In this document: positions 27,822 to 30,457 of the stretch, piece after piece | How positions within the stretch are numbered: position 1 is the stretch's first letter | How the letters are laid out: the number at the start of each line of letters is the position of its first letter | NCBI GenBank assembly: GCA_001657295.1 | Contig: LYSW01000019.1 | Span: 1 to 63,508 of the forward strand | Length of the DNA stretch: 63,508 nucleotides | DNA from: Oceanicaulis sp. BBD 1991-10 | Lineage (GTDB): Bacteria; Pseudomonadota; Alphaproteobacteria; Caulobacterales; Maricaulaceae | Direction: 5' to 3' | Position numbers and translations under genes: made by a program | The notes under the pieces: model-generated | The model's database searches: none | What the model was told of the DNA's origin: nothing | Seen by the model: the letters and a program-made list of their open reading frames with translations, nothing else

Positions 27822-27835
27822 TACACCAAGCGGCT
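27822..27835. repeat. 14-bp direct repeat, left copy (displaced pyrG end)
   Basis: TACACCAAGCGGCT, identical to 28830-28843. On the minus strand it reads AGCCGCTTGGTGTA then G, giving the pyrG C-terminal codons and a TAG stop. Similarity continues for a few more bases with a one-base gap (AGCA-AGCC against AGCAGAGCC). Confidence 0.8.
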
Positions 27836-27862
27836 TGCTGGAGATTTATACCAATATCCCGG

Positions 27863-28795
27863 TCACTTTTTCTTCGCGCTGAGCTTGTCCTCAACCATGG
27901 AGATGTAAGAGACCGGATTATTGGCTTGGAATTCAGCTATGGCGTGTTTGCGGCCTGATAATTCAATAGCGAATTTGCCTAATTCCATCACGACCGGCGT
28001 TGCTGCCACAGCTGTGGCCCCCAACCCCATACCGGCAGAAGTCGCCAAGAAAGTCGCAAGCCCTCCCCCTGCCAAGAGCTTGCTACTCAATAGAGTCGTC
28101 AAGGATTGCTTTGTAAGCTCGAACCCGTGCTTCTTTGCTGCACTTTCGTAATTGAGCTTCAACCGCTCCAGTTCTTCTACGATCTGAGAATGAGACAAGT
28201 CTTGAAAAGAATCAACGGCGAACTTCCTGAAATTCAACAAAGCCTTACGGGCTTCCCGATCTTCACGGAAAGCGATGATCTCAGCCCAGGACAGCTTTGT
28301 CACGTCAACTAGCGATAAGCTTTGGAAAATCAAAGAGAGCACGTCTCGGTCCGTGCCACCAGGTGCCAATCCGTCTGAAACAAACTGTTGAAGGTTCCAA
28401 TCTGCAATTAATTTGCGATACCTTACCCATAAATCGTTCTCAGGCAGTGAAATCGTATCTTCGATCTCTCGAAGTGCATTTAAACCATTCTTTTCAATAA
28501 AGACGCTTTTCTCGTCTGGGTGTTTGGCAAAATATCTTATTAGGCCGTTGTAAAATAATGCATTATTCAGGGCATAGTAGCTTGATCGATCAAGGTTCCA
28601 ATAATCTGGCATTATCCCTTTGTAGAACTCGTCACTCTGCGCAAAAACAAGCTCCTCGCCTGCTCCGAGTCCCACGGATTTAACGGCGTCTAAAACAAGC
28701 TCTGCCAATGGCATAATTGGAACCACATTGTCAAAGTAAAGTGCCGACTCCTTAGAGTTCCATGACAGGGCAGTATAAGGGGCTGCGATTTTCAT
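27863..28795 (-). CDS. AT-rich orphan protein with glycine-rich hydrophobic segment, unknown function
   Basis: A 310-residue protein that I do not recognise. The N-terminal 195 residues look globular and mixed alpha/beta (begins MKIAAPYTALSWNSKESALY). Residues about 197-230 are charged and helical (IVEELERLKLNYESAAKK). About 240-270 is a hydrophobic Gly/Ala-rich stretch (LLAGGGLATFLATSAGMGLG), compatible with one membrane hairpin or a glycine-zipper insertion segment. A short basic tail follows, ending AKKK. Codon use and base composition are clearly more AT-rich than all neighbours, which argues for horizontal transfer. It lies between 14-bp repeats derived from the pyrG end. Single-gene islands of this kind often encode phage defence or toxins; that is only a hypothesis here. 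Confidence 0.72.
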   Translation of the reverse strand: MKIAAPYTALSWNSKESALYFDNVVPIMPLAELVLDAVKSVGLGAGEELVFAQSDEFYKGIMPDYWNLDRSSYYALNNALFYNGLIRYFAKHPDEKSVFIEKNGLNALREIEDTISLPENDLWVRYRKLIADWNLQQFVSDGLAPGGTDRDVLSLIFQSLSLVDVTKLSWAEIIAFREDREARKALLNFRKFAVDSFQDLSHSQIVEELERLKLNYESAAKKHGFELTKQSLTTLLSSKLLAGGGLATFLATSAGMGLGATAVAATPVVMELGKFAIELSGRKHAIAEFQANNPVSYISMVEDKLSAKKK

Positions 28796-28807
28796 CTTTC
28801 AGTCAGC

Positions 28808-28837
28808 ATATAAATTCAACGCATTTGGTTACACCAA
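28808..28837 (-). promoter_or_regulatory. Candidate promoter of the AT-rich orphan gene
   Basis: On the minus strand TTGGTG (28832-28837, inside the pyrG-end repeat) and TTATAT (28808-28813) are 18 bp apart. Transcription would start only a few bases before the ATG, giving an almost leaderless message, which fits the lack of a good ribosome-binding site. Read-through from pyrG is the alternative. Confidence 0.3.
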
Positions 28838-30457
28838 GCGGCTCTGCTCCAACGCCGCCCCGACAAAGCTGGCGAACAGCGGATGCGGCGCAAACGGTCT
28901 CGACTTGTATTCGGGGTGGAATTGCACGCCGATGAACCAGGGATGGTCGGGGTATTCGACGATCTCCGGCAAGATGCCGTCCGGCGACAGGCCGGAGAAA
29001 ATCATGCCGGCGGCTTCTAGGCGCGATCTGTAGTCGATATTGACCTCATAGCGGTGGCGGTGGCGTTCATTGATCGCCGGTTCGCCATAGATTTCGGCGA
29101 CTTTCGAGCCCGCCTTGAGCTGGGCGGGATAGGCGCCGAGGCGCATGGTTCCGCCCAGATCGCCATCCTCATAGCGTTTGACCACCTCATTATCCTTCAC
29201 CCACTCGGTCAGAAGGCCGACCAGCGGCTCGTCGCACGGTCCGAATTCGGTGGAGTTGGCCCGTTCCACGCCGGCGAGATGGCGGGCGCCTTCGATGACC
29301 GCCATCTGCATGCCGAAACAAATCCCGAAATAGGGAATCTTCCGCTCGCGGGCGAATTTCGCGGCGGCGATCTTGCCTTCCGCCCCCCGCTCTCCAAAAC
29401 CGCCGGGCACCAGAATGGCGTTGACGTCCTCCAGCGCGGCCAGCTTGTCCGGGTCCTCGAACTGGCTGGCGTCGAGCCACTCGACATTCACCCTGACCCC
29501 ATTGGCGATGCCGCCATGATTGAGGGCCTCCAGAAGGGATTTATAGGCGTCCACCAGGACCGTGTATTTGCCCACCACGGCGATGGTGACCTCCCCATCC
29601 GGATTATGCACAGCGTTGGAGATGCCCTGCCAGACCGACAGGTCGGGCGCGGGGGCGTCGTCGAGGCCGAAGCGCTCCAGCACCACGGTGTCGAGGCCCT
29701 GCTGGTGATATTCCAGAGGCACGTCATAAAGGGACTTGGCGTCGCGCCCTTCGATGACGGCGTTCTCCGGCACGTTGCAAAACAGGGCGATCTTGCGCTT
29801 ATCGCCCGGATCGATCGGGATTTCCGCGCGGCACAACAGGATGTCCGGCTGGATGCCGATGGAGCGCAATTCCTTGACCGAGTGCTGGGTCGGTTTGGTC
29901 TTCATTTCGCCGGCCGCCTTGATGAAGGGCAGCAAGGTGACATGGATGAAGACCGCGCGGTCGCGCCCCAGCTCCTGGCCCAGCTGGCGGATCGCTTCGA
30001 AGAAGGGCAGGCCTTCAATATCGCCCACCGTGCCGCCGATTTCACATAAGACGAAGTCGACGTCGCCCGCATCCGACAGGACGAAGGCTTTGATGGCGTC
30101 CGTGACATGGGGGATCACCTGCACCGTCGCGCCGAGATAATCGCCGCGGCGTTCGCGCTCGATGATCTCCGAATAAATCCGCCCGGTGGTGATATTGTCG
30201 GACTGATGGGCCGAGACGCCGGTGAAGCGCTCATAATGGCCCAGATCCAGATCGGTCTCCGCCCCGTCATCGGTGACGTAGACCTCGCCATGCTGATAAG
30301 GCGACATCGTGCCTGGATCGACGTTGAGATAAGGGTCGAGCTTGCGTAGGCGGACCTTGTATCCGCGCGCCTGAAGCAACGCCCCGAGAGCGGCTGAAGC
30401 GAGGCCTTTTCCAAGTGAGGAGACCACGCCGCCGGTGATGAAGATATAACGCGGCAT
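28829..30457 (-). CDS. pyrG: CTP synthase
   Basis: A 542-residue enzyme that aminates UTP to CTP using glutamine. The synthetase domain begins [18 protein letters not shown] with the ATP loop, and has the UTP/CTP-site phrase [14 protein letters not shown]. The C-terminal glutaminase domain has the nucleophile in [13 protein letters not shown] and the His/Glu pair in [10 protein letters not shown]. The start was set at MPRYIF, since twelve further upstream residues are unconserved. The last codons form the 14-bp repeat that bounds the AT-rich element; the protein end appears intact (LEQSRLV). Confidence 0.97.
28830..28843. repeat. 14-bp direct repeat, right copy (end of pyrG)
   Basis: The same 14 bases as 27822-27835. 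Here they cover the last four codons and the first two bases of the TAA stop of the functional pyrG. Confidence 0.8.

Follow-up and report, generated by a model that had tools for sequence, protein, structure and literature searches.

The locus downstream of pyrG in Oceanicaulis sp. BBD 1991-10 raises a simple question: how did an AT-rich gene come to lie between pyrG and rpmF, bounded by two copies of the last bases of pyrG, with pyrG itself left whole? The window, by which we mean the whole stretch of DNA analysed, is 63,508 nucleotides long (contig LYSW01000019.1), and its minus strand carries, in this order, pyrG, a gene for a 310-aa protein, rpmF and an enolase gene, the names being read from the ORFs. 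A first-pass annotation had described a 14-bp sequence at the end of pyrG that recurs 1008 bp away, a displaced copy that still encodes SRLV and a TAG stop, an interval made up of one AT-rich gene and short flanks, and the lack of an integrase. All of this could be reproduced: the two copies are exact, SRLV-TAG can be read at the far one, and the 310-aa ORF, with flanks of 27 and 34 bp, is the single ORF between the repeats, with no integrase inside. The features are arranged as follows.

27524 to 27706, minus strand: rpmF (ribosomal protein L32), the downstream marker of the site, called from its ORF.
27707 to 27820, minus strand: native pyrG-rpmF spacer, 114 bp, the length found in the nearest relative, G095.
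27822 to 27835, minus strand: far (displaced) 14-bp repeat, which with the next G still reads SRLV-TAG.
27836 to 27862, minus strand: 27-bp non-coding flank from the gene stop to the far repeat.
27863 to 28795, minus strand: orphan gene, a 933-bp ORF encoding 310 aa.
28796 to 28829, minus strand: 34-bp flank from the near repeat to the gene start, its first base completing the pyrG stop.
28830 to 28843, minus strand: near 14-bp direct repeat, reading AGCCGCTTGGTGTA on this strand, the end of pyrG.
28829 to 30457, minus strand: pyrG (CTP synthase), intact, ending EQSRLV-TAA, called from its ORF and from relatives.

The repeat, TACACCAAGCGGCT at 27822-27835 and 28830-28843 with a spacing of 1008 bp, spans the last four pyrG codons and ends after the second base of the stop. 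The near copy closes pyrG in the context GAGCAG-AGCCGCTTGGTGTA-A and, 1008 bp on, the far copy is followed by GAAGCTC; the insert is therefore composed of 14 bp of repeat, 34 bp, the 933-bp ORF and 27 bp, with 61 bp of non-coding space in total between the gene and the repeats. These are the only two such sites in the 3.22-Mb assembly, at either zero or one mismatch. As a bare match, a 14-mer of this kind is about a 1% event and only moderately surprising, since 6 of 583 sampled 30-nt stretches of the window have an exact match of at least 14 nt in the next 3 kb. Overlapping 14-mer pairs within 3 kb number 46 in the window against a mean of 4.0 in shuffles, one pair of regions supplying 32 of the 46. 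What lifts the repeat beyond chance is that its far copy coincides with the independently aligned position of the ancestral stop. Elsewhere in the window, direct repeats at 19703-19925 and 22317-22515, about 2590 bp apart and with up to 36 bp identical, probably mark a pair of paralogous domains in adjacent genes. A search of 26000-31000 against Rfam gave no match.

The ancestral position comes from G095, whose pyrG protein is 93% identical. Its empty site aligns with the flank of the window, and the homology passes through the far copy, with TTGGTGTAGAAGC common to both; because this independent alignment runs through the far copy, the junction falls on the repeat. Furthermore, the displaced TAG lies 114 bp from rpmF, exactly as the pyrG stop does in G095. 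A precise insertion of 1008 bp that left pyrG intact is thus well supported. All 15 genomes of the genus carry pyrG, and the gap between pyrG and rpmF is 111-116 bp in six of them (G092, G097, G084, G096, G086 and G087) and 177-313 bp in five (G085, G094, G088, G093 and G089), while in G091 and G090 other genes take up 3.4 and 5.4 kb of this place. Neither of these two repeats, before rpmF, any 10-mer from the final 30 nt of pyrG. The exact 14-mer is absent, on both strands, from all 14 other genus loci (2.6-4.6 kb scanned for each, and about 20 kb for G091 and G090), so none of them holds both repeats without the gene, and the site is single-copy in these relatives. Just 3' of pyrG in G091, the last codons form, by eye, one arm of a perfect 12-bp inverted repeat (GCAGAGCCGGTT ... 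AACCGGCTCTGC), perhaps a terminator between convergent genes.

The composition of the inserted DNA is foreign to its surroundings. A 900-bp step over the insert has a GC content of 0.464, the lowest in the window (the lowest step that does not overlap it is at 0.572), and GC by codon position is 0.52/0.37/0.51 in the orphan gene against 0.66/0.40/0.79 in pyrG. The protein found only itself among 137 genomes of the family, so that conservation of the gene in place, which would have spoken against an insertion, was not seen in the other 136; in a sample of the class it again found only itself (1 of 385). In a sample of the phylum there were 15 matches in 398, itself included, and the other 14 were weak (E 1.4e-4 to 8.4e-3); judging by the translations, we take 12 to be thiolases, one an enolase and one a lipoprotein, and we regard all of them as chance matches. 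Similarly, a Pfam match to a plant DNA-binding family fell below the cut-off (E 0.037, 15.2 of the 29.5 bits needed), and the sole sequence match in the PDB (E 0.44) was read as chance. PHROGs, PADLOC and NCBIfam gave no match, and no relative was found among plasmids, phages, viral contigs and genome contigs, two of these searches being sensitive to close relatives only. Judged by sequence comparison, then, the protein has no credible relative in the collections searched. An AlphaFold model from the single sequence is nearly all-helical, with a mean pLDDT of 37.9 at which the model means little; hydropathy peaks near residues 24-45 and 240-272.

The orphan gene probably is read through from pyrG, because it starts 33 bp past the pyrG stop on the same strand. 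The gap between the two holds no promoter-like match, and a scan of 27500-29100 returned one match, within the gene, where 1.2 were expected. Most likely the gene belongs to the class of accessory cargo; a defence or toxin-like role would be pure guesswork.

To see how this interval behaves in relatives, we turn to the family, where pyrG was found in 127 of 136 genomes and rpmF likewise in 127 of 136. Sixty-four pairs had both genes on one contig within 7 kb, genomes with the two on different contigs or far apart being dropped; 24 of these have gaps of up to 350 bp, two of about 430 bp and 38, the window included, of at least 700 bp. Interval length ranges from 107 bp to 6.9 kb among the 64, with different ordinary genes inside where examined. 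From 34 of 40 loci came 73 ORFs of at least 120 aa belonging to ordinary families (for example, DUF2807, decarboxylases, M16 peptidases and RF-1), and there was no integrase among 25 of the 34 Pfam families that they matched. Nor were integrases seen near pyrG in the loci examined, among the matches listed.

The 40 loci (from 39 genomes) and the 15 genus loci, 55 altogether, were tested for repeats of the pyrG end, with downstream sequence of 1.5 kb in the genus loci, less than 1 kb in three loci and none in one. The pyrG end is repeated in two of the 55 only, namely in the window (14 nt, exact) and in G062. In 80 further pyrG loci (many from Rhizobiales, with G092 included again and two having less than 1.5 kb downstream), no downstream match to the pyrG end exceeded 12 nt, and control stretches reach 13. 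In this sample, therefore, pyrG is no common attachment site. Three other candidates were set aside: a second pyrG tail in G018, at a contig end, was taken as contig overlap; a 12-nt match in the same genome that extends past the stop was taken as chance; and so was a 14-nt match in G031 to a stretch 43 nt before the stop. The expectation that other cargo would be found at this site holds in that relatives do carry genes between pyrG and rpmF, but such repeats are lacking in the cases examined, apart from the longer and diverged duplication of G062.

The G062 locus (L052, G062:C1:352800-360600) repeats about 117 bp of the pyrG tail, at 88% identity, 782 bp downstream. Its far side aligns to the pyrG tail and downstream DNA of G070 (71% over 819 bp), and for its near side the match is to G066 (tail 94%, then 85% over 341 bp beyond). 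This suggests import between relatives by recombination that was not site-specific, and it follows that a duplicated pyrG end can arise without site-specific recombination.

An integrating enzyme was also sought. The genome (98.95% complete) has two PF00589 matches, best to XerD- and XerC-type models; the first passes the subfamily cut-off NF001399, and both are below the XerD and XerC equivalog cut-offs. It has two resolvase-type genes, both on another contig and one of them in a 456-aa ORF, and the insert holds no large serine integrase of the kind that a serine-integrase element would carry. Near the end of contig G000:C11, the 456-aa ORF with a serine-recombinase domain lies with the small resolvase, close to a gene that we take to be murA-like; this locus is probably another mobile island. 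Searches of viral contigs for att patterns returned two and eight loci, all inside phage ORFs and some of the eight near-copies of each other, with no convincing attP; one further locus from the att-site search was taken as a spurious match. Palindromes around the repeat are suggestive but weak.

How, then, did the gene arrive? The weights that we give to the readings are judgements and were not computed. We tentatively prefer, at rather less than firm confidence, a remnant or non-autonomous integrative element that site-specific recombination placed at the pyrG 3' end. On this view, a small circle, itself postulated, would have carried the orphan gene together with a copy of the last 14 bp of pyrG and would have recombined with the chromosomal pyrG end, so that pyrG is now completed, with TAA, by the copy from the element, and its former end, with TAG, stands displaced by 1008 bp. 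A tyrosine integrase, also postulated, would have been supplied in trans by an element that is now gone, or else lost by deletion from a larger one, and the result would have the anatomy of a cis-mobilizable element (CIME) whose cargo is one gene. According to the excerpted text of PMC5704250, elements of tyrosine recombinases are bounded by repeats of 8-60 bp and use the 3' ends of housekeeping genes without disruption. The length of the repeat, the housekeeping-gene 3' end, the restoration of the gene and the sporadic, AT-rich cargo favour the CIME-like reading; it is weakened because no integrase and no second element were found, because the non-coding space is tiny and because the interval tolerates genes. 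Thus, in the first-pass claim of an integration scar at a gene's 3' end, the precise insertion, the whole pyrG, the single-copy relatives, the foreign composition and the lack of an integrase inside stand, and site-specific mobility is so far unsupported; that the element is or once was mobile is an inference.

For the mode of arrival, two other readings are real rivals of the CIME-like one. The first, which we hold to be unlikely although clearly worth weighing, is a one-off capture, in which a linear foreign fragment entered at the pyrG stop, through a staggered break or by way of some transposase, fill-in duplicated the 14 bp, and the DNA is not mobile; the fragment would have survived because pyrG stayed whole. 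The interval does tolerate gene gain, as the 38 long gaps, with ordinary genes where examined, attest, and a 14-bp duplication ending in the stop would be one of the few places that spare pyrG. Between the two flanks there is an inverted match of 7 nt, offset (shuffle P 0.029), which points the same way, but proper terminal inverted repeats, as in a DDE transposon, MITE or casposon, are absent next to the 14-bp repeats. No Ku gene was found in the genome, in a search whose control was positive in 1 of 14 genomes, and the examined interval genes of relatives, other than in G062, came in without such repeats.

The second rival, which we judge a good deal more doubtful, is a one-sided homologous import, in which donor DNA with a pyrG end and this gene behind it would have recombined homologously within pyrG at one edge and been joined illegitimately to the last bases of the recipient pyrG at the other, so that a short displaced tail was left. 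G062 displays a comparable pattern, with its sides aligning to G070 and G066. Of the states specific to the sisters G095 and G091, the window shares none of four in the final 60 nt of pyrG and 45 of 91 in the part upstream, but four states are too few to decide. G095 loses its place as the closest sequence over the final 100 columns, at 78% against 84% for both G092 and G088, and TAACC is read by both the near copy and G091; similar swings of identity nevertheless occur further upstream (in one such stretch, G095 77 and G092 86). Moreover, the join would by luck have had to hit the last 14 bp, with donor and recipient agreeing at all 14.

A satellite-like element moved in trans had also been proposed. 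In its minimal form, a one-gene 1008-bp satellite ('att cassette') with the pyrG 3' end as att and moved wholly in trans by a helper integrase or by host Xer, this seems improbable; the searches found no second element in the loci examined, no convincing att site on viral contigs and no tyrosine recombinase in the genome that is not Xer-like. Integrase-less phages integrate at dif. Integration of a small circle by the XerC/XerD of the host, at a dif-like site to which the pyrG end contributed, can be all but dismissed, for although the sole tyrosine recombinases found in the genome are XerC/XerD-like and integrase-less phages employing XerC and XerD are on record in PMC4246890, dif-like arms were not seen around the repeat when it was compared by eye with the dif consensus.

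If the insertion was site-specific, as in the CIME-like reading that we prefer, this would be an unusually small integrase-less element, and pyrG would join the protein genes used as attachment sites. A literature search, judged by titles and the starts of abstracts, found no report of pyrG in that role, although some of the papers that it listed do not contain the word pyrG at all; the excerpted text of PMC13310138 uses pyrG for strain typing only. If it was not site-specific, the locus is a clean case of an orphan gene set down, with a scar of 14 bp, where gene gain is tolerated, and a warning that such scars alone are no proof of site-specific integration.

Finally, the insert can be set beside known systems. 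Integron gene cassettes are single ORFs that have short flanks and lack a clear promoter of their own, and their attC sites have the consensus RYYYAAC...GTTRRRY. The insert is like them in its one ORF, its short flanks and its want of a clear promoter, but differs in its 14-bp target duplication and in that no attC was seen, by eye, in the 41 bp past the gene stop; a lone GTTRRRY word (GTTGAAT) sits at the opposite end of the insert. The pyrG-tail duplication of G062, from the same family, is alike in placing a second pyrG end downstream of pyrG, and differs in being about 117 bp long and 88% identical, with sides like two different relatives. In the excerpted text of PMC3146451, Dehalococcoides has 15 ssrA islands described as being without integration modules, and there, as here, a site repeat (20 bp) bounds islands that lack an integrase; those islands, however, form tandem arrays with integrase-bearing relatives at ssrA, whereas here a lone copy stands at pyrG. 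The closest comparison is with CIMEs, the decayed ICE/IME that keep attL and attR. The insert differs from them in that it has one gene, shows no trace of an ancestral ICE/IME, has no helper that we could find and targets pyrG, and its site specificity rests on one case. As CIMEs are described in the excerpted text of PMC5704250, it nevertheless resembles them in its exact 14-bp direct repeats as putative attL and attR, in its place at a gene 3' end with the target restored, and in being free of integration and transfer genes, its one ORF matching no family above cut-off.
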